IMG/VR virus record: IMGVR_UViG_3300025369_000054
Coordinates: 1-26,171 of that record
Length of the DNA: 26,171 nucleotides
DNA from: a virus
Strand: one strand, 5' to 3'
Under the pieces are notes generated by a model that worked only from the letters and a program-made list of their open reading frames with translations, did no database searches and was not told the origin of the DNA. Position numbers and translations under genes: made by a program. How positions within the stretch are numbered: the stretch's first letter is position 1; every line of letters starts with the position of its first letter. This document shows, one piece after another, positions 5,292 through 26,171 of this stretch.

Positions 5292-5972
5292 ATGAATGTT
5301 AAATTGCTTAGTTACAGCCAGCCAACTGAAGAATTCGCTAGCATGGGAATCTCGGATGCACAAGAACTCATTGCCTACTGTGCAAGAGTCAGTAACCCGA
5401 GCAATCAGCTTAATACAGAAACCTCAGAAAAACTCATACGATATCTTATTAAGCACCAACATTGGAGTCCTCTCGAAATGGTGTCCGCCTGCATCGAGAT
5501 TACTACTACAAGAGATATCGCAAGACAAATCCTTAGACATCGAAGCTTCAGCTTTCAAGAGTTCAGCCAACGTTATGCTGACCCAACAAAGGATCTCAAC
5601 TTTGTACTTAGAGATGCTCGCAAGCAAGATACCAAAAATAGACAAAACAGTATAGAGCTTGATATTCATAATAACGACGAAGATCGTTTTCTTGCTTATC
5701 AATGGGAACGTATGCAAGAGTTAGTTATTAAACAAAGCCGTGATGCATACGAATGGGCTGTTAGTAAAGGTATTGCCAAAGAACAAGCTCGTGCTGTACT
5801 GCCAGAAGGACTTATTGAAAGTCGTTTGTATATGAATGGCACACTACGCAGTTGGATTCATTTTATTGAATTGCGTAGTTCAAACGGTACACAAAAAGAG
5901 CATCAAGAAGTTGCTATCGCTTGTGCCGAAGTTATAGCTAAGATCTTCCCAATGACTACAGATCTTATTTAA
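5292..5972 (+). CDS. thyX: flavin-dependent thymidylate synthase ThyX
   Basis: It methylates dUMP to dTMP using methylene-tetrahydrofolate, FAD and NADPH, giving the phage a dTTP supply independent of host ThyA. The ThyX signature RHR-x7-S is present as RHRSFSFQEFS (residues 82-92), followed by QRY. The C-terminal part keeps ARAVLPEGL, a Tyr-Met pair and RSWIHFIELR, as expected for the dUMP/FAD site. At 226 aa it is of normal length. The ATG directly follows the stop of the upstream gene, with AAGAAG as a weak ribosome binding site. Arg and Leu codon use changes abruptly near base 5650-5685 (see findings). The 3' end overlaps the convergent minus-strand gene by 8 bp. Confidence 0.95.
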   Translation: MNVKLLSYSQPTEEFASMGISDAQELIAYCARVSNPSNQLNTETSEKLIRYLIKHQHWSPLEMVSACIEITTTRDIARQILRHRSFSFQEFSQRYADPTKDLNFVLRDARKQDTKNRQNSIELDIHNNDEDRFLAYQWERMQELVIKQSRDAYEWAVSKGIAKEQARAVLPEGLIESRLYMNGTLRSWIHFIELRSSNGTQKEHQEVAIACAEVIAKIFPMTTDLI

Positions 5973-11235: not shown

Positions 11236-11243
11236 TATTTATA
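11236..11243 (-). promoter_or_regulatory. T4-type late promoter (perfect octamer)
   Basis: TATAAATA on the minus strand matches the T4 late consensus exactly. It ends 23 nt before the 307-aa start codon and overlaps the stop codon of the 498-aa gene (11239-11241). In T4 this element is read by host polymerase with gp55 and the sliding clamp, after replication begins. Confidence 0.75.
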
Positions 11244-12735
11244 ATACTACAACTTCAATAACACCAGTTTCGGTGCTACCATCAAAGTCTTCTAATGCTA
11301 TAGCAAAAGGATATAGCGATGTTACAGCAGTATCATCAATATTTTGAATAGATATTGCCAAGCCGCCATTAGTTGCAAGTAATTGATCGCCTTTATTCAC
11401 CGGTTGAGTAACCTTGCATGGTACTCGACCTTTAAGGGCAATATATGTTCCACCTACTAGCTCGCTATTCATCATATACGCAGGGTTAGTAGAAACAACA
11501 CCAATTGGTCTTTCTCCCCAAACGCTAGCACGTACTTCGGCACTGCCACCTACTGATATTACAGTGCCTGGCTCGTATTCTTTATCTGCAAGATATTTTT
11601 CTGCTAAGTCAGCGTAATTAGCACTAGTAGCAGTACCTTGGAATAATGTAGCATTTAAATTGCCTAAATTGTCACGAACTGCAATAGTATTAATTGCACT
11701 AGCAACACTTGCAGTTCTATATGTTCCGCTAACACTCAATGTATCAGCTTGCTGAGCAGTACTATAAACATATCCAGCGTAGATATTATTCCACTGTAAC
11801 GTACTAGAACCGATATTATTAGATAATGTTACACCTGGAAGCATGTCCGATCCAACTAAATTTAATGGATTTTTAGTAACAGCATTAACAGTTGTTTCAA
11901 AAGCTAAAGTATCGCCTACTTGATTAATAATTGTTGGAGTAGTAGCGGCACTATTGTAAATTTTTAATTTAGCTGGAGTTGCACCTACTGTAAAACCAGC
12001 ATCTCCAAACTGAACTAAACTTGAAAATACTGCATTTCCAGTTTGAATAAAATTACTTGCACTTAATCCGCCAAGGCGGTCTGAATTAGTCGATGTTCCC
12101 CAGAATCTATGATTACTTGTAGTTTGCCCTGGAAGAGAATCATTATTAGTATAGACTAAAGTAACACCTTGATGAATTGTCGAAAATCCTGTAATAGCAT
12201 TAGCTGAATTGTTTAGCACAAAATCAGCATCTGAACTAATTGTGAATATTACGTTTCCGTTATCAAGAGCTTCAATAATAGGATGAGATGTACCGTTAGA
12301 ATCTAACACACTAATTGAGCGCATTTGAGTTGTTGCTGAACCAGCAACGCCTTGTGGCCCAACTAATGTAAATCCTGAACCATTATAAGAATAAAGTTGC
12401 TGATTAACTGTATCCCACCAAAAATCACCTTGTGTCAATCCAGTAGGTTGGGTTGCAGATATCTCTGCACCGCCTGCAATTCTAAATTTACCGTTAATAT
12501 CGTAAAATTTTAACTTGTTTGCACTACTATCAAACCATAATTGACCGCTAACAGGGCGAGGAGGTTGCGATGATCCGGAGAAATTTTCAAGCAAATACAC
12601 AAAATTTTCGTTTTGTACTGCACCGTATCCGGCATAATTTTTGCCGATTAACTTAAGATCTAATGTAGAATCAATGGTCCCATCTGCTACTATAGCTACT
12701 TGAGTTCCATTAAATCTGTTTATGGTATATGACAT
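11239..12735 (-). CDS. tail fibre protein with shared N-terminal anchor and G2-peptidase-like C-terminus (498 aa)
   Basis: Residues 1-128 are the anchor module shared with the next two fibre genes (ADGT, LIGKN.AGYG, NF..LLENF, P..GQLWFD, GDFWWD, QLYSYNG). The middle is a Thr/Ser/Asn-rich beta shaft with NIGSSTLQWNNIYAG, also seen in the 733-aa fibre. The last ~115 residues (YADLAEKYLADKEYEPGTVI, RPIGVVSTNPAYMMN, GRVPCKVTQPVNKGDQLLA) resemble the C-terminal domain of fibres with peptidase-G2-type self-cleaving or trimerising ends; cleavage is not proven. It has its own late promoter at 12759-12766. Its stop lies in the late promoter of the next gene. Confidence 0.85.
   Translation of the reverse strand: MSYTINRFNGTQVAIVADGTIDSTLDLKLIGKNYAGYGAVQNENFVYLLENFSGSSQPPRPVSGQLWFDSSANKLKFYDINGKFRIAGGAEISATQPTGLTQGDFWWDTVNQQLYSYNGSGFTLVGPQGVAGSATTQMRSISVLDSNGTSHPIIEALDNGNVIFTISSDADFVLNNSANAITGFSTIHQGVTLVYTNNDSLPGQTTSNHRFWGTSTNSDRLGGLSASNFIQTGNAVFSSLVQFGDAGFTVGATPAKLKIYNSAATTPTIINQVGDTLAFETTVNAVTKNPLNLVGSDMLPGVTLSNNIGSSTLQWNNIYAGYVYSTAQQADTLSVSGTYRTASVASAINTIAVRDNLGNLNATLFQGTATSANYADLAEKYLADKEYEPGTVISVGGSAEVRASVWGERPIGVVSTNPAYMMNSELVGGTYIALKGRVPCKVTQPVNKGDQLLATNGGLAISIQNIDDTAVTSLYPFAIALEDFDGSTETGVIEVVVL
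12352..12735 (-). repeat. fibre N-terminal anchor module, copy 3
   Basis: The third occurrence in transcription order of a ~130-residue module also at 16250-16660 and 14079-14459. Shared landmarks are ADGT, GKN.AGYG, F..LLENF, P..GQLWFD and a GDFW.D...QLY block. It probably docks each fibre on the same baseplate or fibre-network site. Confidence 0.75.
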
Positions 12736-12758
12736 TTCGCCCGTTCCTTATTCTAGTG

Positions 12759-12766
12759 TATTTATT
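12759..12766 (-). promoter_or_regulatory. T4-type late promoter (7 of 8)
   Basis: AATAAATA on the minus strand lies in the 41-bp gap before the 498-aa fibre gene, 24 nt from its ATG. It differs from TATAAATA only at the first base. Confidence 0.6.
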
Positions 12767-12776
12767 CTATTTTGCA

Positions 12777-14459
12777 TCACAGTTGAGTCTGGAACGACCA
12801 TGTTCCAGCTAATAACTGAAATTGTCTAACTGTTGTAGTTCCCGAATCTGTGCAAACAATCCTAGCAATGGTGTTATCTGGATGCTCTGTACTAGGAAAT
12901 ACCTTACTTAGATAATTACCAGCAATTTGAGCATTAGTTAGTCCAGTTGTAGTTAAACTTAAGGCTAAAGGTGCTTTAGAAATTGCAGTATCTACGTAAG
13001 ATTTGTTTGCACCGTCTGTTGTACTAATCGGTGTTGCTACGTTGGTTAAGTTAAAACTACCAAAATCTACTGTTCCAGTTCCCTTAGGAACTAGATATAT
13101 TGTGCCGTTAGACTGGCTGTTATTAGTATAAGCTATTCTAGATTCATTTCCAGTACCGCCAATTGTCAAATAACTAACACTGACACCATTTAGTGTACCT
13201 ACACTAGTTAAGCCTGGCGCACTGGTAACTACAGATCCCAGTGCAATCGAGCCGCCACTAGTTCCAAGAACATTAAATCCGCCAATATAGTAAGATTTTC
13301 CAGCAGTTAAATTGATATTTTCACTGCTATTCCAACTTAAATTACTTACTGCCCATTGGAAAACTTTATTTGTGTCGGCGCCGCCTGCTAGGATTAAACC
13401 ACCGCCGTCTGCCGTACTATTATTAGGAGTTTGAACTTGGCCCAATGTAATATATTTGTCAGCAATATTAATTACTGTCGTACTAACAGTTAAAGTACTG
13501 CCTTTTACTGTAAGATTACCCTCTACAGTAACATCACCATTAACATCTAATGTACTAGTTGGAGTGTTTGTATAAATTCCAACATACTTGTTTGCACTAT
13601 TAATAAACAAACTATTCTGCAATCCGCTATTATTGAAAGTATTAATTCCAAAATTTTGATTTACAGTATTTGACTTAATCTGAAATAATGTCGATGTAGC
13701 ATCTATTTCTGTGTTGGCGCCAACTCCCAACACTAAAGGTGTGGAATTTTGAATAGTAATGGTGCCAGTTGTGCTTGAACTATCAGTTGTACTTAAAAAG
13801 TTCGCGGCAGTTTTGTGTGTTCCGTCCGGAGCCAACAAATAATCAGCTTGTGTTGTCGGTGTACTAAATTTAATTCCAGAATAATTCCCTACATTGAAAC
13901 CTGCCGTTATACTACCGGTAAACCCGCCTATTGCGGTAGCCGGTGTAAAATTATCTTTACTGAATATTCCGATTAATGTTTGAGCAACATAAAGTAATAA
14001 AATTGTATGGCTTATATTGTTAATGTCTAATACATCAGATGTACTAAACCCAGTAATACCTTGAGTAGAAGTATATATAGGTCCTGCTAGTTTTGTACTA
14101 GTACCATCATTAAAATAAAGCTGTTGGCGGGCACTATCTATCCATAGATCGCCGGCAGTTATACTGCTAGGAACAGTATTAGATATAATTGTTCCGCCGC
14201 TAACCTTAAATACAGTGCCGTCATAAACTTTTAAACGATTTTCAGTAGTATCGAACCATAGTTGTCCAGTTATTGGACGTATCGGTTGTGTTATGTTAGC
14301 AAAATTTTCAAGTAAATTTACAAAATTATTATCAATATAGTTTCCGTAACCGCTAGCATTTTTACCAATTAGTGTAAGATCTGTCGATGTTTGATCAAGT
14401 GTACCATCTGCAATCTGCGTTAAAGTACTTCCGTTAGTTAAAATAATTGAATATGTCAT
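12777..14459 (-). CDS. tail fibre protein (560 aa) with shared N-terminal anchor
   Basis: Residues 1-127 are the shared anchor module. The middle contains a repetitive shaft including VGIYTNTPTSTLDVNGDVTV and EGNLTVKGSTLTVSTTVINI, a beta-strand pattern common in phage fibres; NLTV.GST recurs in the 913-aa protein. The C-terminal ~100 residues (NGTIYLVPKGTGTVDFGSFN, ISTTDGANKSYVDTAISKAP, ARIVCTDSGTTTVRQFQLLA) form a distinct tip. The ATG shares one base with the previous stop (TAATG), so translation is coupled to the 733-aa fibre. The protein should assemble as a trimer on the virion and take part in host recognition. Confidence 0.85.
   Translation of the reverse strand: MTYSIILTNGSTLTQIADGTLDQTSTDLTLIGKNASGYGNYIDNNFVNLLENFANITQPIRPITGQLWFDTTENRLKVYDGTVFKVSGGTIISNTVPSSITAGDLWIDSARQQLYFNDGTSTKLAGPIYTSTQGITGFSTSDVLDINNISHTILLLYVAQTLIGIFSKDNFTPATAIGGFTGSITAGFNVGNYSGIKFSTPTTQADYLLAPDGTHKTAANFLSTTDSSSTTGTITIQNSTPLVLGVGANTEIDATSTLFQIKSNTVNQNFGINTFNNSGLQNSLFINSANKYVGIYTNTPTSTLDVNGDVTVEGNLTVKGSTLTVSTTVINIADKYITLGQVQTPNNSTADGGGLILAGGADTNKVFQWAVSNLSWNSSENINLTAGKSYYIGGFNVLGTSGGSIALGSVVTSAPGLTSVGTLNGVSVSYLTIGGTGNESRIAYTNNSQSNGTIYLVPKGTGTVDFGSFNLTNVATPISTTDGANKSYVDTAISKAPLALSLTTTGLTNAQIAGNYLSKVFPSTEHPDNTIARIVCTDSGTTTVRQFQLLAGTWSFQTQL
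14079..14459 (-). repeat. fibre N-terminal anchor module, copy 2
   Basis: Shared ~130-residue module: IADGTLDQTSTDLTLIGKN, NNFVNLLENF, RPITGQLWFD, AGDLWIDSARQQLYF. Of the three copies it looks closest to copy 3 in length and spacing. Confidence 0.75.
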
Positions 14460-16660
14460 TAAATGACTCCGGTATAGATGATATAATTAAGAGTTGCATA
14501 CGGATTCATCACATTCAATGCATTTCCTAACGTAGTATTTTGATCTGGAATTACTCCTCCGCTGTTTGGAAGACCTGAACCGGTACTAAAATTAGGTAAA
14601 CCATATGAAGGAATTGCTGCCGGATCAGGTACACCAGTTGGCAGACCTGGAGCATAATACTGCGCGGCACTACTACTTAAATTATGCTTGTGGTCTGGTA
14701 GGTTTTTAGTTGCGATTGTAACTTGCTGAGTACCTGAACCTGTTCCTAAAGTTTTACCAGTAATATCTGAAACACGGTTAGCAGAACCACCGCCGGCATT
14801 TACTAATGTTCCAGATCCGTCCGAGCTTGGAACTTCCTGTCCGTTATTCATATCATCTTTACCTAACGGGAATCTACCTCTAAGATCAGGTAATCCAAAT
14901 GTTCCAAATCCAATTAACGAACTAGCAGGTTTATAAGTATACCCAATTATGCTGAACAAGGTTGAATATTTTGATGTTAGAACTTCGCTGCCATCGCATA
15001 ACAAATAACCTGTAGGAACTGAACTAGCAGATCCAGCATAAGGAAAAATAACTCCTACTGGAATCTGTGGAATATGATTAAACAAGACTTGTTTAGTCAT
15101 ATTAATTAAACCAACAGATGGTCTGTATACTAATAGTTGATCAGTTACTAATGAATCAGCCGCTGATTGTTTCGTTGATATAAAATCAGGGCTGATAACA
15201 GTATTTAAATAAGCGGTTCCATTAGTAGTTTGGCCAGTAAATGCTGTTCCGCCATCGCTACTAGCTACATCACCTCGTAAAATAAATTCTGTGGCACTTG
15301 CTAGTCTTGCGGCCGATCCACTTATGCTACCTTGTAGTGTACCAGTAAAAGTTCCAGTAAAATTTCCTACAAATGTATTAGCATAAATGTTTCTAAAACT
15401 ATAAGAACTGCTACCAATATCATATATGCCGGTTGTAGTTGGTAATAACGCTGATCCTGTCTGTGGGATTCCGTTCGAATCAAGCCAATTTAAATATAAT
15501 TGTCCGTTAATTGTAGTGTCATCGCCTAATGCAGTTTTTTTAGCTACTTTCAAACCACCTAATGTTTGTATACTTGGACCCCCGGGATCAGTTATTCCAG
15601 TGCTTAAATCTCCTACATCATTAGTTCCGTTAACTAATAATCTTCCAAATAAACTAGATGCAGTATCATTGCCAATGTTTACTTGGCCTATAACATCTAA
15701 GGTTGCCTGAGGGCTTGAATTATTTTTTCCTACACCAATTTTTAAAGTAGAATCAATATATAATGCAGTATATGGCACATTTGACTGTGTAACTCTAATA
15801 CTCATACTCTTATTACTAGAGTTGTTATACAGAATTCCGTTACCTGTATTATCTGTTACCAAACTAACACTTAATGCACTTCCAACTGTTATACCGCCGT
15901 TAGCTCTTACACTAATAGGAAAACTACTAACATCTGAAATATCTTTTCTTAAAAAATTAGTAGACGCCACTGCGGATCCATTATACAATAATGAAGCTGC
16001 CTGCTGTGCAGTTCCCCATAATCCTGCACTAAGACCATCTGATGGATTTGCATCAGTACTAATTGTATATAAATTAATACCTTTATTAATTGATGCGAAC
16101 CCAAGTAACGTTGACTTAGGAGTAAAAGAATCCTGACTAATGATTGCTACACGATTATTATTTGAATAAATGGTAACAACGCTATGAGAAACATTAACAC
16201 TATCAATAATATTTTCAACTTGCGGGCCAGTTAAAGTACCTTGACTAAATTGAGGCCCGACTAAAACCCAATTACTACCTGTAAAAATATACAATTGGCT
16301 ATTTGTAGTGTCAGTCCATAAATCTCCTGCCACACTATTTGCCGGTGCAGGTTGTTGACTGCTTGCACTTTTCTTTACTGATCCTGCCGCAGTCCATGTA
16401 GTACCGTCATAAATTTTTAATAAATGAACACCGCTAGTATTATCATACCATAACTGACCTTCTACAGGATTGCTAGGCGCAGTATTAGACGCAAAGTTTT
16501 CTAATAAATGTAAAAAATCGTTAGCAACAATAGGAGCATAACCTGCATAATTTTTTCCAACAAATGTTAAACTAGTTTGATTATTAAGAGCTTGATCAGC
16601 TACTGTAATTGGCGGTTTAGCAGGATTTGTTGAATCAGTAAACGTAACTTGATATGGCAT
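14459..16660 (-). CDS. tail fibre protein with C-terminal phage Collar domain (733 aa)
   Basis: Residues 1-137 are the shared anchor (FVGKNYAGYAPIVANDFLHL, VEGQLWYD, AGDLWTDTTNSQLY). The shaft includes VGKNNSSPQATLDVIGQVNI and YDIGSSSYSFRNIYANTFVG. From about residue 530 a Collar-type domain is clear: IPVGVIFPYAGS, PTGYLLCDGSEVL, FGLPDLRGRFPLG, LPDHKHNLS, ending PYATLNYIIYTGVI. This domain occurs at the receptor-binding end of T4 gp12-like short fibres and similar adhesins, where His can bind metal in the trimer tip. AAGGGG 6 nt before the ATG supports the start. It lies 10 nt after the 205-aa gene and is co-transcribed from the late promoter at 17309-17316. Confidence 0.9.
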   Translation of the reverse strand: MPYQVTFTDSTNPAKPPITVADQALNNQTSLTFVGKNYAGYAPIVANDFLHLLENFASNTAPSNPVEGQLWYDNTSGVHLLKIYDGTTWTAAGSVKKSASSQQPAPANSVAGDLWTDTTNSQLYIFTGSNWVLVGPQFSQGTLTGPQVENIIDSVNVSHSVVTIYSNNNRVAIISQDSFTPKSTLLGFASINKGINLYTISTDANPSDGLSAGLWGTAQQAASLLYNGSAVASTNFLRKDISDVSSFPISVRANGGITVGSALSVSLVTDNTGNGILYNNSSNKSMSIRVTQSNVPYTALYIDSTLKIGVGKNNSSPQATLDVIGQVNIGNDTASSLFGRLLVNGTNDVGDLSTGITDPGGPSIQTLGGLKVAKKTALGDDTTINGQLYLNWLDSNGIPQTGSALLPTTTGIYDIGSSSYSFRNIYANTFVGNFTGTFTGTLQGSISGSAARLASATEFILRGDVASSDGGTAFTGQTTNGTAYLNTVISPDFISTKQSAADSLVTDQLLVYRPSVGLINMTKQVLFNHIPQIPVGVIFPYAGSASSVPTGYLLCDGSEVLTSKYSTLFSIIGYTYKPASSLIGFGTFGLPDLRGRFPLGKDDMNNGQEVPSSDGSGTLVNAGGGSANRVSDITGKTLGTGSGTQQVTIATKNLPDHKHNLSSSAAQYYAPGLPTGVPDPAAIPSYGLPNFSTGSGLPNSGGVIPDQNTTLGNALNVMNPYATLNYIIYTGVI
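16250..16660 (-). repeat. fibre N-terminal anchor module, copy 1
   Basis: The longest copy of the shared module (~137 residues), with small insertions relative to the other two (SGVHLLKIYDGTTWTAAGSV). The core landmarks GKNYAGY, LLENFAS, GQLWYD and GDLWTDT are intact. Confidence 0.75.
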
Positions 16661-17336: not shown

Positions 17337-18977
17337 TTAATCCGTTCTTGCACCGGTTGATATTCGGGGGTATGCCGGTCCATTAGGCCTAAAACCAAAA
17401 TTTTGTTTAGGGTATGTTTGTCCTGTATGGAATAATTTATAAATTTGATCAGCTTTTGGACTGCCTAATCCTGTCACAGCATCCCATCCAGCAGTGCAAA
17501 CATAGCCAGTAGAGTAACCGTCTCTGTTGTTTCCAGTGGTTACGTCGTTGAATAGTGTTGTGCTGTTAGCATAAAATGTTGTCATATTAAAGGGTATTCG
17601 ATAACCTAATAGTTGTGTTAGGCGCACCCATAGGCCTGCAAGAAATGGAGCGGCAGCACTGGTACCTCCATACTGTACTTGTGATCCTTGCGCACTACTT
17701 GTGCCGCCAATATAAAATTGATACCCTGTGTTAGGATCAGCAGGAGCACTCCAATCAGGAACACCTCTGTAAGGCAACGAAGTTGGAGTTCCCAATCCTG
17801 ATGAGTTAGATCCTGTAGTAGTCGTATATGTTAGTCCAGACTGCCAACTTGGAACTGCAACACTGGAACTATGTCCTCCACCAGTTGCTCCGTTATGATT
17901 TGATCCGTTTGAACCTTGACCAGTGCCAGCACTATCTCCCCATGCTACTTCGGCCGTAAGTGCATTAGATCCGTTAAGTGTTACATTTGTGCCGCCTGCT
18001 GATACAATGTATTGACTACAAACTGTTGCTGCCATACTTAAATTAACTGCGCCGCTATCGCCTGCACTGACAAAAAATGTTATTCCCTTAACAGTGCCTG
18101 ATTGAAACGCTGTATCATAACTGGTAGTATCGCCTAGGCCCCAACTGATACTTAATACGCTAGGATTGTTTGTGGTATCGTTTACTGCGGCATTAATAAC
18201 ATCTGTTATACTTCCGCCGTTTTGTCCAATATAATAAACTATTTTTGCTTTAGGTGCGGCAGCTCCGGCACAGTATATATCTAGCATGCTTTCAGCAGTT
18301 GATGTAGAATTTACAGTTACTCCATCTACAATTACTGTAGTTATAGAGGGAGAAGTTAAACCAATTCTACTAAAACTAGCAGTAACATCAGGTTGTTGCC
18401 AACCTTCCGGACTTCCGCTATATGTTAACTCGAATATACCGATACATCCCCCGTAGCCATCTCCGGCAGGAGCATTGTAGGCAGTACACATCTGCACTGG
18501 AGTAACTGCTGATCCTCCATATGAACTTCCTAATTCAGGATGAGATGCATCATGTTGAACTGCATGATTAGTTGCAATAAAACTTTGATCAAATCCAAAT
18601 AAATCTCTTACTGCTGGAGAAATTTCTGCAGGAATAATAACCGGTGTTATATTTTTTATATAAGTTCGATTGTTGTCTGTTATTTCTTGTAACGTTACAG
18701 AAAATAAATCTTTAAGATGTCCTAAAGTACCTTGTATTTTAATAGTTGCAATAGCAGATTCTGCCATAATTATTGTTAAATTATTTTCTACAGCCCAGTT
18801 AGATACTAATTGCATGTTGTATTCAGTGGTTCCAAATTGATATGCAAATTCCTCGTGACCTAAAATAGGATGAGTACCCGCTAATACAGCATCAGCATAT
18901 TCCTTTAATGTCATTCCATTATCATGGATGTCATTATGCAGATATATACTTAATTGAAATGTTTGATTGTAATCCAT
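17337..18977 (-). CDS. S53 family serine-carboxyl peptidase (sedolisin/kumamolisin type) with prodomain
   Basis: A 546-aa sedolisin. Residues ~10-135 form a Pro-kumamolisin activation domain (HEEFAYQFGTTEYNMQLVSN, IQGTLGHLKDLFSV). The catalytic domain follows: Glu229 and Asp233 in AESMLDIYCAGAAAPKAKI, oxyanion Asp307 in FFVSAGDSGA, and Ser440 in YGGTSAAAPFLAG. FNDVTTGNNRDGY (Asp478) and GWDAVTGLGSP (Asp499) match the calcium-site region of the family. All key residues of the Glu-Asp-Ser triad are present, so activity is expected. Characterised members cleave proteins at acid pH after losing the prodomain. There is no signal peptide. A 30-residue Pro/Arg/Gly-rich C-terminal tail extends beyond the usual end. 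It lies 1 nt after the 913-aa fibre gene and so is co-expressed with virion genes: a virion protease or fibre-processing enzyme is likely, but unproven. Confidence 0.93.
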   Translation of the reverse strand: MDYNQTFQLSIYLHNDIHDNGMTLKEYADAVLAGTHPILGHEEFAYQFGTTEYNMQLVSNWAVENNLTIIMAESAIATIKIQGTLGHLKDLFSVTLQEITDNNRTYIKNITPVIIPAEISPAVRDLFGFDQSFIATNHAVQHDASHPELGSSYGGSAVTPVQMCTAYNAPAGDGYGGCIGIFELTYSGSPEGWQQPDVTASFSRIGLTSPSITTVIVDGVTVNSTSTAESMLDIYCAGAAAPKAKIVYYIGQNGGSITDVINAAVNDTTNNPSVLSISWGLGDTTSYDTAFQSGTVKGITFFVSAGDSGAVNLSMAATVCSQYIVSAGGTNVTLNGSNALTAEVAWGDSAGTGQGSNGSNHNGATGGGHSSSVAVPSWQSGLTYTTTTGSNSSGLGTPTSLPYRGVPDWSAPADPNTGYQFYIGGTSSAQGSQVQYGGTSAAAPFLAGLWVRLTQLLGYRIPFNMTTFYANSTTLFNDVTTGNNRDGYSTGYVCTAGWDAVTGLGSPKADQIYKLFHTGQTYPKQNFGFRPNGPAYPRISTGARTD

Positions 18978-18978
18978 A

Positions 18979-21720
18979 TTAATTTTCTAATTTTAAATAT
19001 GTTATGGTTACAGTTATAGTATTTGTACCACCGCTGTTATTATAAATTTTCAAATACATATTTGTTCCAACAGTACCGTCATTATTAAATCCATACACTG
19101 CTGGAGTAAAATATGTCGTAGTTGCTATTGTTGTAATTGCTTCGGCTACTACTCCGCTACCTGGAGTAGGGTCTGTTGTAATTGTCCTTGAGCTATCTGT
19201 AGACTGTGCTGAACTACTAGTATAAACTGTTACCCAAGCTCCTGCATTAACTTGAATACTATATAGTGCATAACCTTTTGCCGCTGTTACTGTTGCCGTA
19301 GCACTTGTACCATTGGCTAAACTTGCTGTCGTAGTTGATACAGTTGCTCTACTACTTAAGGCACCGCCAAGAGTTGGAGCAGCCGTAATTACTCCGTTAT
19401 TAATAGTAATTGTAGAGCCGTCAATCTTAACTCCACCTAATGTACTAGTTGATGCAGTAGGCAATGTGTAAGTCACTGCTCCGCTAATAATACCATTGTT
19501 AATAGTAATTGATGACCCGTCTACTTTAACAACACCTGCGATACTAGTACTTGCAACTGGAACACTTATAACTCCACCGCTAATAGTAATCGTAGTGTTA
19601 TCAACTTTAACTCCACCCAATTGACTTGAAGTCGCTGTTGCAATTCCAATCGTACCGCTTGTATTTGTAATGCCACTAGTGCCAACTGCTGGTATAATCA
19701 CTCCGCCTAGTGTAGTAGTAGTTGCGGCCGATAACTGGGCGGCTGGAGTAAACTGAAACACGTTACCACTTAAACTTAAAGCTCCGCCTCCGCTAGCACC
19801 ATTTGTAGTAACACTATAAGAAGGAACTGATGGAATTACTGGAGGAGTATAAGTGAAAACAGTTCCAAGTAAACTTACACTACCGTTTCCGCTTGGACTA
19901 CTTGTCTGTACACTATAAGTAGGAACGCTAGCAGGAGTAAATGTAAATGTACTTCCACTTAAACTTAAACTGCCACCACCGCTGGCGCTATTTGTTTGTA
20001 CAGTATATGTTGGAACAGTTGGTATTGCTGGGGGCGTATAACTGAATACATTTCCGCTTAAACTCAATCCCCCGTATCCACTTGGACTATTTGCTTGTAC
20101 ACTATAAGTAGGAATATTAGCAGGTGTAAATGTAAATGTAGTCCCATTTAAACTTAAACTACCGCCGCCAGATGAAGATAAACTATTTGATACTGTGTAA
20201 CTAGGAACACTTGCCGGTGTAAATGTAAATATACCGTTACTATAACTAAGGCTTCCGCCACCGCTAGCAGGACTTCCGGTAACTATACTTAAACTAGTAT
20301 TTTGAAGTGGTGTATATCCTAATGCAGAAATTACCTGACTACCTGTAATGGTTGTTAGATAACTTGATAAGTTTGGAGGGGTAAATGTAAACACTCCATT
20401 TAAGTAACTTAGTGATCCACTACCGCTTGCAGATTGAGTTGTTACGCTTAAACTATTAACGTTAAGATAATTTGATAAGTTAGGAGGTGTAAAAGTAAAT
20501 GATCCTGCAGAATAACTTAATGAGCCGTTGCCGCTTGCAGTTACCGTTGACACACTAAGACTGTTAAGAGATATTGGAGTATAGCCCAATGCTGTTATTA
20601 CTTGACCATTAGTTAACGATCCTCCGTAGACTCCTGTAATAGTACCAGCCGTGCCGCTGACATTTCCAGTTACATTTCCAGTTACATTTCCAATTAAGTT
20701 ACCCGTAAACGAACTAGCAACTAAAGGAATATTACTTGTAAAACTAGTATTTGATGCGGTATATAAAAAACTAGCAGGAGTTGCGGGCCCGTTTACAACT
20801 ATTCCGCTGCCATCGCTAAGTGCGCTACTAGTACTACCGTTACTAACAACAATAGTTTTATTAGCTACATTTAATGTGCTTGTACTTGTGCTAGTTGTTG
20901 ATCCTGTTACTGTTAAATTTCCAGTAATTACTGTATTTCCAGTAACATTTAAGCCAGTTAATGTGCCAACTGTTTGCAAACTAGAATTTATTACTGTACT
21001 AGGCAATGTAGTTAAACTGCTAGCAATACTAACCGCAGGAATTGTAATATTTGTCGTACCATCAAAATTAATTCCATTAATTGTTCTAGCAGTTTGTAAT
21101 GCGGTAGCAGTTCCTGCATTACCGGTAATATTAGTAACTGTTGCCGGAGGAGTAAATGTAAATAATCCAGTAGAGCTGTTGTACGCTATATTACCGGCTC
21201 CGCTTGGAGTAACATTTATCACACTTAAATTATTCAAACTAATAAATGATGATATGTTTGGCGGTGTATAAGTGAAAACACTTCCGCTCAAACTCAAACT
21301 TCCAGTGCCGCTAGCACTGTTGGTTGAAACAGTATATGTAGGTATCACTGGAGGAGTAAACGTAAATTGATTTGCAGAATAGCTTAATGCTCCGCTTCCG
21401 CTAGCAACACCAGTCCGCACTGACAAGCTATTAGAAGTCAAATAAACAGCTAAGTTTGGAGTATTTGTTAGTTTAGTATAACTTAGGCTAGTAATCCAAG
21501 CGGGATCAGCATAAGCCGATGTGGTAACAACACCATTAGTAGCTACAAACGGTTGCCAAGTAACTACATTGCCGTCAGTTGTTAAATATTTTCCGCTATT
21601 TCCAATCAGTGATGGTATAGAAAGAGAATATAACTCAGTAAAATTACTGTTTATTTTGGCAGCTCCCGATTTTAAACTATCGGCAGCTCCCGGTGTTGTA
21701 TTAATTATTAATTGTGACAT
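18979..21720 (-). CDS. repeat-built tail fibre / adhesin (913 aa)
   Basis: The N-terminus (LIINTTPGAADSLKSGAAKI, NSNFTELYSL) matches a common attachment motif of phage fibre proteins. Most of the rest is tandem repeats: about 11 copies of a 30-36-residue unit (V.T..ASG.GSLSYS.G.FTFTPP), split by a NLTVTGST segment and by QVISALGYTPL-type linkers. Then come four LGGVKVDG.TITI..GVI units and a beta-rich C-terminal tip (residues ~800-913). It contains no Cys and is rich in Ser, Thr and Gly, as expected for a long trimeric beta shaft. AAAGGA supports the start, 19 nt after the large structural gene. It is probably a distal host-recognition fibre whose length could vary by repeat recombination. 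Confidence 0.85.
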   Translation of the reverse strand: MSQLIINTTPGAADSLKSGAAKINSNFTELYSLSIPSLIGNSGKYLTTDGNVVTWQPFVATNGVVTTSAYADPAWITSLSYTKLTNTPNLAVYLTSNSLSVRTGVASGSGALSYSANQFTFTPPVIPTYTVSTNSASGTGSLSLSGSVFTYTPPNISSFISLNNLSVINVTPSGAGNIAYNSSTGLFTFTPPATVTNITGNAGTATALQTARTINGINFDGTTNITIPAVSIASSLTTLPSTVINSSLQTVGTLTGLNVTGNTVITGNLTVTGSTTSTSTSTLNVANKTIVVSNGSTSSALSDGSGIVVNGPATPASFLYTASNTSFTSNIPLVASSFTGNLIGNVTGNVTGNVSGTAGTITGVYGGSLTNGQVITALGYTPISLNSLSVSTVTASGNGSLSYSAGSFTFTPPNLSNYLNVNSLSVTTQSASGSGSLSYLNGVFTFTPPNLSSYLTTITGSQVISALGYTPLQNTSLSIVTGSPASGGGSLSYSNGIFTFTPASVPSYTVSNSLSSSGGGSLSLNGTTFTFTPANIPTYSVQANSPSGYGGLSLSGNVFSYTPPAIPTVPTYTVQTNSASGGGSLSLSGSTFTFTPASVPTYSVQTSSPSGNGSVSLLGTVFTYTPPVIPSVPSYSVTTNGASGGGALSLSGNVFQFTPAAQLSAATTTTLGGVIIPAVGTSGITNTSGTIGIATATSSQLGGVKVDNTTITISGGVISVPVASTSIAGVVKVDGSSITINNGIISGAVTYTLPTASTSTLGGVKIDGSTITINNGVITAAPTLGGALSSRATVSTTTASLANGTSATATVTAAKGYALYSIQVNAGAWVTVYTSSSAQSTDSSRTITTDPTPGSGVVAEAITTIATTTYFTPAVYGFNNDGTVGTNMYLKIYNNSGGTNTITVTITYLKLEN
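19380..19720 (-). repeat. four LGGVKVDG-type repeats in the 913-aa fibre
   Basis: Four copies of roughly 25-30 residues with the pattern LGGV..DG.TITI..GVI, of which the first (LGGVIIPAVGTSGIT) is the most divergent. They sit C-terminal to the FTFTPP repeats and look like a second shaft type before the tip domain. Confidence 0.65.
19740..21460 (-). repeat. tandem ~90-105 bp coding repeats in the 913-aa fibre
   Basis: About 11 degenerate copies, seen on the plus strand as recurring GGAGGAGTAAATGTAAA-like blocks (near 19746, 19850, 19930, 20030, 20119, 20212, 20377, 20481, 21147, 21260, 21351). Each codes G.FTFTPP. Adjacent copies between 19740 and 20500 are the most regular. The gap 20560-21130 holds the NLTVTG shaft part. 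Confidence 0.75.
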
Positions 21721-21739: not shown

Positions 21740-24700
21740 TTACCACTGATCTGTATTATCATCGAATCCAGCACTACTATTATCAAACGATCCAGTAAAC
21801 GTTGTACTAGTTGTTAATCCAACCTTGTCGCTATACCAAATACCCGGAGTTGCTTTTAAGAAAGTAGCAATGTTATTATTGTCATACTGAATATTTAACG
21901 AACTATCCCAACTTATGCCTTTTCGTCTTACCACAGTAATTTGAGTGCCGGCAGGTATTAAATTTGTTAATCGTAAACTTGAACTAACTCCATCTACTGC
22001 AAATTCGGCATCTAACTGCACATCCCCAGCTGGGCTATAAGGTGCAATAGTTTCATTATGAACTTTGTACGGTTTCTTTTTAAGTCTTAAATTTCCGATA
22101 AAGAATTGCCAGTTGGCGCTATCTGCCAAGAAATTAGTTGAACTAGTATGTGATGTAATGCATCTGTAATTATAAGACGCTACTTTAATTATAATTCCAA
22201 CTGTATATTCTACATTTGGCATCCAGTCAATTGCATCATTATAACCTGCGATGAATACTTCAAGCTGGTCGCTCTGACCATACCCGGTAGGTATTGTGCT
22301 TGTGAATCCAGTTGAATAAGTCCATATTTCATTTGATTTTTCAGGAACGAATGGTAAAGAAACTATATTAGTTCCATCACTAATTATAGTTGTTATTGTA
22401 GAAGACTCAGAATAAGGCAGTGTTTCTGATGGACCAATATCTTGCACAGGTGTACCTATTGGATGGACTTGAGGCGTTCCAGTTCCTTGTGTACCGCGGC
22501 GCAATTGACTCAATGTGTTTCCATCAATTTGATAAAACTCAATACGTTCTCCGTAAATTTCAACCACTCCGGGTTTTTGTAAGGCCGTGTTAGGTTTATC
22601 AAAATTACTAGCATCGATTACTTGGATTACTACATCATTATAATGTAAATCATTAGCTAGCTGTGTTTGTTTATTTTTGCTTAATCTCTTAAAATGAACT
22701 CTATTAAGCATATCTTTAAATTGCATATAAGAAATGCCAGGAGTCAACACATTACTACTGAATGTCATTAAAGAAAATACATCATTAAGAGCTGGTGTTT
22801 GAGCCAACCATACATATTTTTTATCGTCTGATATTTTATAATCTAACGAAGGAGTCAATAATGTATTATTATGTGTTATCCATACATACGAATCATTAAG
22901 CACTGTTCTATCTAACGGTAATATTCCAGCACCAAGGCCCGTGTAATTAAAATATGTTACTGAATTTTGTATGTAAGATATATCAGTTGTAATGTTAAAT
23001 GCAGTTCTTTGAACATCTAAAATATCCTGATTGTAAAAGCTAATTACTTCTACAACATTTGAAGAATTATAAACATTACTAAAAGATATTTGTTGTGTAT
23101 TAGGCAAATATGCATAACCATTATTTTGTATAATGCTAATAGATAAAATTTGGCCTTGATATAAATTATAATTTTGTTTAGTTATAGTTACAGTTATGCC
23201 GCCTAAATTGATTGTATAATCAGTTCCTAGATTCAATTTAACTCCAGAAACATATACTAATATATTATCAATAGTAATACTATAAGGAATCGCTCTATCT
23301 TCATCTACAGTATAACTAAGTTCATTATTGGCAATAGTATAATACTGATTTATCGGACTAGACAATATAGTTTGATCTACTCTTACAATCATATTAGATT
23401 CTGCTGGAAGTACATTTCCGACTGGATAAAATAAATTGTATACTCGATTAACTCCATCTGTTGGAATCTTTTCAGTCTTAGCAATACTGAATGTTTGTTG
23501 TGTGCCGCTGACAATTACATAATTTATTACAGAACCTACAGCAGGAGCAATACCAAATCGTATACCAGTTCGATTTGAAGCCGCATAGGTTGAATCTGTT
23601 TTGAATAATTCAATAACTGATGCAACACCGTCAACATAAACTAAACTTGTTTCATAAGTAGTCCAAGGCGCTTTTGTTAAAAATTCAGTAGTTGATCCAT
23701 CACCTACAAAAGAATCGATATCTAAAATATTAGAACCATTAAATCCAAAACTGAATATACTAACTATATTTCCAGCTATTGGAGCAACGTTAAATTTAAT
23801 CTGTTTATTTTTGTAATCGACTGTATAATCTGTGTTATATGTAACTATAGAATCGTTATTTTTAACTATAAGAGCTCTGGAATTGTTAATGGGCTGTGTT
23901 ATATCAAATAGCACAGTATTGCCATCTGCAATATATTTGTCTACTTTTATATTTGCACTACCCGAGTTAGGCTGGTCAAACACTTTAATAGCCAGTGTAT
24001 CCACTATTTGGCCTGGAACTACTTCTTCAGGTGCTGGGCTAGTTGTAGGACTAATTAAATCATCACCATCTACAATAATATCTTCAGGTGCCAGACCAGT
24101 TGCAGTCGTATAACCCATATCACCACCAGACAACGCTGTATCATAATCCTGATCTAATGGCTTAACTGATCCGTCGCTAGTGCTTTGTCTTAAAATAAAT
24201 CTATCGCCATCTGTTACAATAACTGTATTTGGTATCGTAATTACACTAGTAATACCATTCATCACTGGAGTACTCATTACTGCATTACTATTAGTTTGCA
24301 ACATTGTACCGTAATTAGGGTCGTCAATTCTTACAGGATCAAAGTAACTCTTAATGATAATATTTGTGCCAGCTGTTAACGGGGCAGATAAAATAGCATT
24401 ATAATTAGAAAAGATCGGTGATAACGATCTAGAAAATACTATAGACGAACTATTAAGTATAGTAACAAATGTTATTTGATTTAACGTAACTTCATTAGTT
24501 ACTGAATTTATTGCAGTAACAACGGTATCTTGTCCAAACGCTGATACTGCCGACGTAGATACCGCATCACCAATCTGAATACCAGCTACACTAGATAGCG
24601 CTAGTATAGTAGATTTAGCCACATTTTTTGTAAAAGTTAATGTGCCGTTAGGTTGTGTATTTGGAACAATATTTAATTTTAAAGTGGTACTGTTAATTAC

Positions 24701-26171
24701 CGATACCACTTGTTGCAATGGAACAAGTGTAATAGAATCAGCAACAAATCCTGCGCCAATTACAGTCATTCCTGGAACGATGCCAACTGTGCTAGCTACA
24801 GTTAATGTTGTCGATGGAATATATGCACCTGCTGGAGGGTAGTAATTAGTCTGGATTGAGACGGATTGGTGTGCTATATTTGCACTAACTACTGGCAATA
24901 CATCATACAAATTAAATGGATAACTTGTAGTAACACCATCTGATGTGTAAGCATCAGTATTTAAAACTGAATGGTATACATTAATGTCAACTCCTGCTAC
25001 TGGAGTATATGGTAATGTAAATGAATGTGTATTGGCAGAAACTGTTACAATATAATCATTGAATGTAGGATCTGCGCTGTCCCATTTATCGCTATAGTAC
25101 GGCAACGTTCCCCAGCCTGTAGCTACATCAAACCCTAGCCCATTTACAATAACTCCTCCGTAATCAATTCCAGTCATCAATTGTGCAAAATCTGTACCTA
25201 ACGATCCGTTACTTGATTTATAATAATATTTTATTCTATCATTAGCATTTAGTAAAGATTCATCTTTAATATAATTTACAACAATTACAGATCCTGTAGC
25301 AGGAGATGTTAAGAATGTTATTAATCCAGAATATTGTGTGTAACCATTAGTAGTGGTTGTTTTTACAGCTAATGTGTACGAATCTCTAAGAATTAGCACA
25401 CCGTCAACTGTTACTGAAGAATTTCCAACTTTAATATCTGGTGCCCATGTTAGATTAAATTGTAATATTCCAGATCTGCCGGTAAATGTTTGACTTACAT
25501 CTAACTGTGTAATATAATACGAATATGTAGTTCTATCAAATTTAATTTTAATTAAATTGCTTCTAACTACACTATTTCCAATAATTGCAATTGCAGTAGC
25601 TTGTTTACCACTTACTGATAATCCACCGCTTAGTGTTACAGTTGGAGCTGACAAATAACCTGAACCTGGTGTTAGTATTATAATTCGATTAACAACTCCG
25701 TTAGCAAAAAATGCACGGGCTGTTGCTCCGCTACCTGAATCACTAGTAATAGTTACTACCGGTTCTGAAATATATCCAGTACCGCCGTCTACAATTTTAA
25801 GTTCAGTTATTGAAAATCCAACATTATCTAACCAGTTTTTCCAAGGATAAGTTTGTATGTTAGCATCATCCGCTTGTATCTTACCATTGCTTACATAAGC
25901 ATTGATAATTGTTTCCATGCCATCTTCATATATTGGAGGAATATCAAAGTCAGTAACTAAAGTATGTTCGTAATCTGTTCCAGAAAATGCGCTGACATAT
26001 TCTCTTACGGTACTACGATACGGTACTACCTCAGAAATATAATCTTGAAAATTACTTAAATTATCAGGTTTATAAGTTACCGGTTGATCTAATACTCCAA
26101 GATTATGTGTAGATTTAACAAAACTTGTTTTAAAGATCCAATCTAAATATAGTTGTTCGCTAAGTGCATAT
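21740..26171 (-). CDS. large virion structural protein / adhesin, 5' end outside the window
   Basis: The frame is open from the stop at 21740-21742 to the window edge: 1476 complete codons and no start that can be trusted. The internal ATG at 25918 has no Shine-Dalgarno, and the 84 codons before it read as normal protein (LYLDWIFKTSFVKSTHNLGV, NLSNFQDYISEVVPYRSTVR), a motif set I associate with very large T4-like cyanophage structural proteins. Next come two G.GY..P.VT.SGG repeats (IVDGGTGYISEPVVTIT, LTPGSGYLSAPTVTLS), then several 70-90-residue beta repeats (DG.T..F.., VYVDG, DYT, I.F..AP..G..V). Near the end are VVEIYGERIEFYQIDGN and a carbohydrate-binding-like stretch at 22100-22235. Likely a long tail or baseplate-linked fibre; the whole protein may be far larger. 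Confidence 0.88.
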   Translation of the reverse strand, partial: YALSEQLYLDWIFKTSFVKSTHNLGVLDQPVTYKPDNLSNFQDYISEVVPYRSTVREYVSAFSGTDYEHTLVTDFDIPPIYEDGMETIINAYVSNGKIQADDANIQTYPWKNWLDNVGFSITELKIVDGGTGYISEPVVTITSDSGSGATARAFFANGVVNRIIILTPGSGYLSAPTVTLSGGLSVSGKQATAIAIIGNSVVRSNLIKIKFDRTTYSYYITQLDVSQTFTGRSGILQFNLTWAPDIKVGNSSVTVDGVLILRDSYTLAVKTTTTNGYTQYSGLITFLTSPATGSVIVVNYIKDESLLNANDRIKYYYKSSNGSLGTDFAQLMTGIDYGGVIVNGLGFDVATGWGTLPYYSDKWDSADPTFNDYIVTVSANTHSFTLPYTPVAGVDINVYHSVLNTDAYTSDGVTTSYPFNLYDVLPVVSANIAHQSVSIQTNYYPPAGAYIPSTTLTVASTVGIVPGMTVIGAGFVADSITLVPLQQVVSVINSTTLKLNIVPNTQPNGTLTFTKNVAKSTILALSSVAGIQIGDAVSTSAVSAFGQDTVVTAINSVTNEVTLNQITFVTILNSSSIVFSRSLSPIFSNYNAILSAPLTAGTNIIIKSYFDPVRIDDPNYGTMLQTNSNAVMSTPVMNGITSVITIPNTVIVTDGDRFILRQSTSDGSVKPLDQDYDTALSGGDMGYTTATGLAPEDIIVDGDDLISPTTSPAPEEVVPGQIVDTLAIKVFDQPNSGSANIKVDKYIADGNTVLFDITQPINNSRALIVKNNDSIVTYNTDYTVDYKNKQIKFNVAPIAGNIVSIFSFGFNGSNILDIDSFVGDGSTTEFLTKAPWTTYETSLVYVDGVASVIELFKTDSTYAASNRTGIRFGIAPAVGSVINYVIVSGTQQTFSIAKTEKIPTDGVNRVYNLFYPVGNVLPAESNMIVRVDQTILSSPINQYYTIANNELSYTVDEDRAIPYSITIDNILVYVSGVKLNLGTDYTINLGGITVTITKQNYNLYQGQILSISIIQNNGYAYLPNTQQISFSNVYNSSNVVEVISFYNQDILDVQRTAFNITTDISYIQNSVTYFNYTGLGAGILPLDRTVLNDSYVWITHNNTLLTPSLDYKISDDKKYVWLAQTPALNDVFSLMTFSSNVLTPGISYMQFKDMLNRVHFKRLSKNKQTQLANDLHYNDVVIQVIDASNFDKPNTALQKPGVVEIYGERIEFYQIDGNTLSQLRRGTQGTGTPQVHPIGTPVQDIGPSETLPYSESSTITTIISDGTNIVSLPFVPEKSNEIWTYSTGFTSTIPTGYGQSDQLEVFIAGYNDAIDWMPNVEYTVGIIIKVASYNYRCITSHTSSTNFLADSANWQFFIGNLRLKKKPYKVHNETIAPYSPAGDVQLDAEFAVDGVSSSLRLTNLIPAGTQITVVRRKGISWDSSLNIQYDNNNIATFLKATPGIWYSDKVGLTTSTTFTGSFDNSSAGFDDNTDQW
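22100..22235 (-). other. carbohydrate-binding-like segment in the large structural protein
   Basis: WMPNVEYTVGIIIKVASYNY followed by RCITSHTSSTNFLADSANWQFF has the W..n..Y..G..V...Y.C...H.S...F..d...W pattern of CBM5/12-like modules, which occur in chitinases and phage tail proteins. The three aromatic positions expected for sugar stacking are present. This is a pattern judgement without a profile search. Confidence 0.5.

Follow-up and report, generated by a model that had tools for sequence, protein, structure and literature searches.

Why does a phage tail-fiber operon encode a sedolisin? Sedolisins (family S53) are classically extracellular acid enzymes. The window analyzed here, an IMG/VR virus record of 26 kb (26,171 nt), carries an S53 open reading frame among fiber genes (Table 1), and a first-pass annotation had taken it for an intact sedolisin with Glu229, Asp233, Asp307, and Ser440 and without a signal peptide. 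Closer analysis upholds that assignment. In a phmmer search against solved structures, the protein matched kumamolisin (1t1e) at 1.7e-51, and the alignment places E229, D233, D307, and S440 on the four catalytic residues of kumamolisin. The HMM check that had been proposed for the prodomain placed Pro-kuma_activ (PF09286) on residues 4–124 (Pfam, 2.4e-10, above cut-off). An AlphaFold2 model built with 26 phage homologues as input (pLDDT 80.9, pTM 0.86) has pro-kumamolisin, again 1t1e, as its nearest solved structure (Z 46.7, rmsd 2.2 Å, 476 residues). The superposition spans residues 1–518, corresponding to intact pro-kumamolisin, and among the structures listed those of family S53 outrank every S8 structure. 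Four features by which MEROPS describes S53 are present: a Ser-Glu-Asp catalytic triad plus the oxyanion Asp, a subtilisin-like fold with sedolisin architecture, an N-terminal Pro-kuma_activ prodomain, and a C-terminal Ca2+ site, whose Asp478 and Asp499 are kept in all complete phage sequences.

The tetrad is invariant in all 41 distinct phage homologues (Ser in 40/40, one sequence being truncated before it). Values of dN/dS lie at ~0.05–0.2 in eight phage S53 pairs, and the sequences support purifying selection on the phage genes. By inspection, no hydrophobic signal peptide is present, in agreement with the first-pass reading; in the AlphaFold2 model, the prodomain has its first strand at residues 6–13. 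The phage enzyme shares with the kumamolisin group the prodomain and catalytic fold, the tetrad, and the Ca-site residues, but differs in lacking a signal peptide, in carrying a 30-aa C-terminal tail found only in phages, and in its coupling to a fiber gene; some phage S53s also lack the prodomain.

No S53 match was found among 50,697 cultured phages. In viral contigs, relatives increased from 4 to 17 and then to 52 loci as the profiles were widened, and the same locus recurs in a second contig at 99.6% identity. Hence the gene is neither an assembly artefact nor a chance ORF. Phage S53s with the invariant tetrad and Ca-site Asp residues reach down to 38% identity to that of the window; cellular S53s, for which the comparison set comprised the 80 best cellular matches only, are ~33% identical to the phage proteins. 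Phage sequences lie on one side of a branch from these 80 with an SH-aLRT of 100, which marks them as an established phage lineage and a new phage branch within a known family. Given this separation from the 80 nearest cellular S53s, the data do not support that a host gene was captured recently. Of 13 large contigs, seven encode a T4-type gp23. The tail sheath PF04984 was unmatched in the large relatives, a result that is uninformative since T4-type sheaths may be modelled elsewhere.

The window operon runs from a giant structural protein through the fiber, S53, and phrog_11259 to collar fibers; among cultured phages, its relatives are jumbo phages. A baseplate wedge gene in Phosso and Atu_ph07 is followed by a giant "virion structural protein" of ~4,500 aa, whose position the giant protein of the window fits, and then by a phrog_11259 homologue, with no S53 between them. 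Among 80 contigs with phrog_11259, most lack an insert; others hold a fiber of the kind described below together with one more gene, or inserts of a different sort. It had been noted that S53 lies just before another structural unit; that unit is phrog_11259, whose homologue in phage 7t3 is annotated "structural protein."

Table 1. Features of the sedolisin locus (positions in the window)
Feature	Position	Strand	Remarks
S53 sedolisin	17337..18977	-	546 aa; prodomain ~1-145, catalytic ~156-515, C-terminal tail 517-546
C-terminal tail of S53	17340..17429	-	residues 517-546, HTGQTYPKQNFGFRPNGPAYPRISTGARTD; candidate docking tag
Tail-fiber ORF, 913 aa	18979..21720	-	directly upstream; stop codon 1 nt before S53 ATG
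TIP domain	18982..19371	-	C-terminal beta-sandwich, last 130 aa of fiber; also ends cyanophage fiber/tail-pin proteins
phrog_11259 protein, 205 aa	16671..17288	-	match 2.2e-67; homologue in Salmonella phage 7t3 bears a structural annotation
Giant structural protein, 3' part	21740..26171	-	cut by window edge
Collar-domain fiber, 733 aa	14459..16660	-	PF07484 4.2e-15; next in operon

The fiber that precedes S53 ends in a conserved domain of ~110 aa, which we name TIP. It is modelled as a beta-sandwich (pLDDT 91); its matches in the PDB are weak and viral jelly-roll-like (Z 8.2 or less), so we draw no functional inference from them. A neighborhood survey, also proposed with the first-pass annotation, was made on S53 genes collected without reference to TIP: among the 43 phage S53 genes that were complete and non-redundant, 39 follow a TIP-ending fiber, 38 of them at exactly 1 nt. 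The 1-nt spacing reported earlier for the window is the junction TAA-T-ATG, an instance of the usual TAA-N-ATG. The last TIP codons (L-E-x) often provide a GAGG-like Shine-Dalgarno sequence for the protease, which is weak in the window itself. Distances among S53s and among TIP domains are correlated (Mantel r 0.59, n = 34); in an 18-locus subset, chosen because it allowed a comparison with the other neighbor, phrog_11259, r was 0.47 for S53 and TIP versus 0.16 for S53 and phrog_11259. As judged from sequence, S53 and the TIP fiber are coupled and co-inherited. A random, non-conserved insertion, the outcome that had been set against the first-pass reading, is excluded by the conserved slot, the coupling, and the 52 loci. 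Fiber shafts vary widely (216–1071 aa). TIP-ending fibers also occur without an adjacent protease (L185, L195, L204–L209), and in phage S-SCSM1 gp141, with TIP at its C terminus, is followed by a protein without a Pfam match; TIP therefore has other roles as well.

In the first eight contig loci inspected that have a gene other than S53 closely after a TIP fiber, this gene is an S8 subtilase. An S8 gene follows the TIP fiber also in the cultured cyanophages S-H38, S-CREM1, Sf-FR1, S-H9-1, S-WAM2, S-RSM4, S-CAM4, and ACG-2014e/h, with a spacing that is usually 1 nt in cultured Synechococcus phages, and the D/H/S triads are intact in nearly all S8s of the slot. Because TIP, phrog_11259, and one cyanophage S8 served as the entry points to this sample, the frequency of S8 elsewhere is not readable from it. 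The cyanophage "subtilisin-like serine proteases" (S-H38 gp095, S-CREM1 165, S-RSM4 039) are likewise coupled to a fiber or tail-pin protein ending in TIP and have the same kind of C-terminal tail and clan SB fold as the window S53, but they belong to family S8 (Asp/His/Ser); they are annotated only, and the papers found propose no function for them. Novelty had initially been seen in the S53 alone; the enzyme is instead one of two interchangeable proteases in a wider cassette. On the best TIP tree the S53/S8 labels need at least three changes, but the well-supported branches force only one, so repeated swapping is suggested and no more. One S8 relative (3.5e-10), in S-CAM1 (L157:5317–7572), is annotated "putative proximal tail fiber" and has an apparently degenerate triad.

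The slot also accepts S53s that have lost the prodomain. Four non-redundant genes of 408–416 aa (L097:7716–8945, L190:6320, L192:6302, and L193:6305) occupy it, with catalytic residues and tail retained, and their surroundings showed no ORF for a separate prodomain. Because of these four and of the S8 (His-type) proteases in the slot, the earlier idea that prodomain and acid chemistry keep the protease silent does not apply generally.

S53 and S8 proteins of the slot share their C terminus. The tail consensus for both families is PKxNYxxRPxxGxxYPR (FPKxNYxxRPxxGxxYPR-like), and the window S53 carries RPNGPAYPR 17 residues from its C terminus. Thus the window has both marks of the cassette, a protease ORF starting 1 nt after a TIP-ending fiber and a C-terminal YPR tail on the protease. 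An HMM made from S53 tails alone finds S8 C termini (best 6.2e-7, 1.7e-6, and 2.9e-5), with no cellular S53 above chance among 80 and no shuffled controls. By pattern, 60 of 61 proteases coupled to TIP have the tail, against 0 of 80 cellular S53s; the single coupled exception (L203) has a variant ending VFPR. Two of ten phage proteases uncoupled from TIP have the tail, both from phages that lost the fiber gene and kept the tail (L014 and L016); the association between tail and TIP coupling has a Fisher p of 3.7e-8, relatedness ignored. Although the tail is conserved in phages, the monomer model leaves it disordered (pLDDT <50), as expected of a docking peptide. S8 proteases behind fibers that end in another domain (P-SSM2, Sf-CH8, and S-SCSM1 gp144) lack the YPR tail. 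The upstream fibers in these phages (L165–L167) end in a conserved TPEPGVTGxVTYRxxR, perhaps a second type of dock. Two further phage S53s (L147:8971–11553 and L154:8899–12882) are fused to cadherin-like repeats (PF12733) and lack both the TIP fiber and the YPR tail; this is another design, for the virion or for secretion.

Information on virion location comes from homologues. Mass spectrometry of CsCl-purified S-SCSM1 virions detected 45 phage proteins (PMC9602691). The S-SCSM1 GenBank entry carries "(virion protein)" notes on, among others, a D-alanyl-D-alanine carboxypeptidase and a lysozyme-like protein; since these two match detections named in that paper, we took the notes as the mass-spectrometry list. 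The same notes mark gp144, which has an S8 domain (2.9e-26), and gp141, which ends in TIP. Having neither a YPR tail nor a TIP fiber directly upstream, gp144 speaks for a virion-borne protease from the fiber locus but not for the cassette as such. Fiber-locus proteases and TIP fibers are thus supported as virion parts through homologues, which is not proof for the window S53. The earlier proposal of a protease borne on the virion or fiber gains strength from the S8 counterpart, the common tail, and the S-SCSM1 data.

We lean toward a fiber-coupled sedolisin whose catalytic residues are intact, which is docked by its tail on the fiber tip and cuts host surface or extracellular protein at adsorption. 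S53 would be translated in coupling with the fiber just upstream and carried on the tip of that fiber, its conserved tail bound to the TIP domain or to a site to which TIP contributes. The fiber would bring the protease to the cell, where it may cut a host surface or extracellular protein, or the surrounding matrix, during adsorption. The docking unit would be generic, holding an S8 subtilase instead in related phages. The tail as dock, the tip position, and a host target are what we infer from the coupling, the common tail, and the homologues; uncultured T4-type phages probably carry a protease on the fiber tip. In T2/S16-type phages, the adhesin gp38 is encoded right after the fiber gene (gp37) and sits on the fiber tip; like S53, it is the product of a gene directly following a fiber gene, but it is a glycine-rich adhesin, not an enzyme, and we liken the two by gene order alone. 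With the polysaccharide depolymerases of fibers and tailspikes, S53 would share a place at the end of the virion that faces the receptor. Their substrate is polysaccharide, and they usually belong to the spike chain, whereas the window S53 is a separate protease chain.

The main rival is fiber maturation, which we regard as unlikely. In this case S53 would bind the new fiber via its tail, cut the fiber or adjacent tail proteins while assembly proceeds or following release, and then leave or stay. Tight coupling and co-inheritance with the fiber would suit such a role, the tail could dock transiently, and phage proteases that process structural proteins are common. However, acid-type S53 chemistry fits the neutral cytoplasm poorly, the slot takes two protease families while the shafts differ so much in length, and in many close relatives this operon contains no protease. 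S53 is missing from many relatives and is hence dispensable, which speaks for a released extracellular protease, a "moron" that would be made late, freed at lysis, and degrade environmental or host protein without being part of the virion; nutrition, biofilm matrix, and the clearing of receptors from debris would be possible uses. The classically extracellular habit of sedolisins points the same way. We nevertheless hold it quite improbable, in view of the fixed place and 1-nt coupling to the fiber, of a tail that is common to a different protease family and absent in the 80 cellular S53s, and of the homologous fiber-locus S8 protein detected in purified S-SCSM1 virions.

The sedolisin fold might instead have been re-used on the fiber without catalysis, as an adhesin or spacer only. 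The alignment suggests that the S8-like protein of S-CAM1 is missing the Ser and Asp motifs; activity may thus be lost in the slot. Against this stand the tetrad and Ca-site Asp residues, invariant across the whole identity range of the phage S53s, and the S8 triads, intact in nearly all, and we consider re-use of this kind very improbable.

The tail-docked, fiber-borne protease that we favor may belong to a broader pattern. Tentatively, and with somewhat less confidence than we would need to call it likely, we suggest that T4-type phages of many aquatic hosts have exchangeable fiber-tip proteases held by a YPR-tail/TIP dock, with acid-type S53 and neutral S8 swapped (perhaps by habitat or host) and proteolysis as a general adsorption strategy. 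The papers searched named no habitat for the IMG/VR samples. If the favored reading is true, proteases would join the enzymes that phages carry on receptor-facing fibers, proteolysis at adsorption would parallel the use of polysaccharide depolymerases, and a modular peptide dock for two protease families would be a new way to diversify the working end of a fiber. The TIP domain and YPR tail together give a simple rule for finding fiber proteases, one that reaches cultured cyanophages whose proteases are annotated but unexplained. The open literature searched, with most subscription journals outside the search, contained no prior description of the TIP-fiber/protease cassette and its tail; the cyanophage S8 genes had been annotated one by one.

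Several minor observations concern other parts of these loci. S8 proteases of some cyanophages (L155, L160, L163, and L164) are extended C-terminally beyond the tail, and the extension in S-MbCM7 (L155) gave a weak plastocyanin/azurin match (0.0014, below cut-off). In the window, positions 11239–16660 hold three consecutive fiber genes with paralogous N-terminal halves, which suggests a shared attachment domain. A ThyX thymidylate synthase (2.6e-46) is encoded at 5292–5972, on the strand opposite to the fiber operon.
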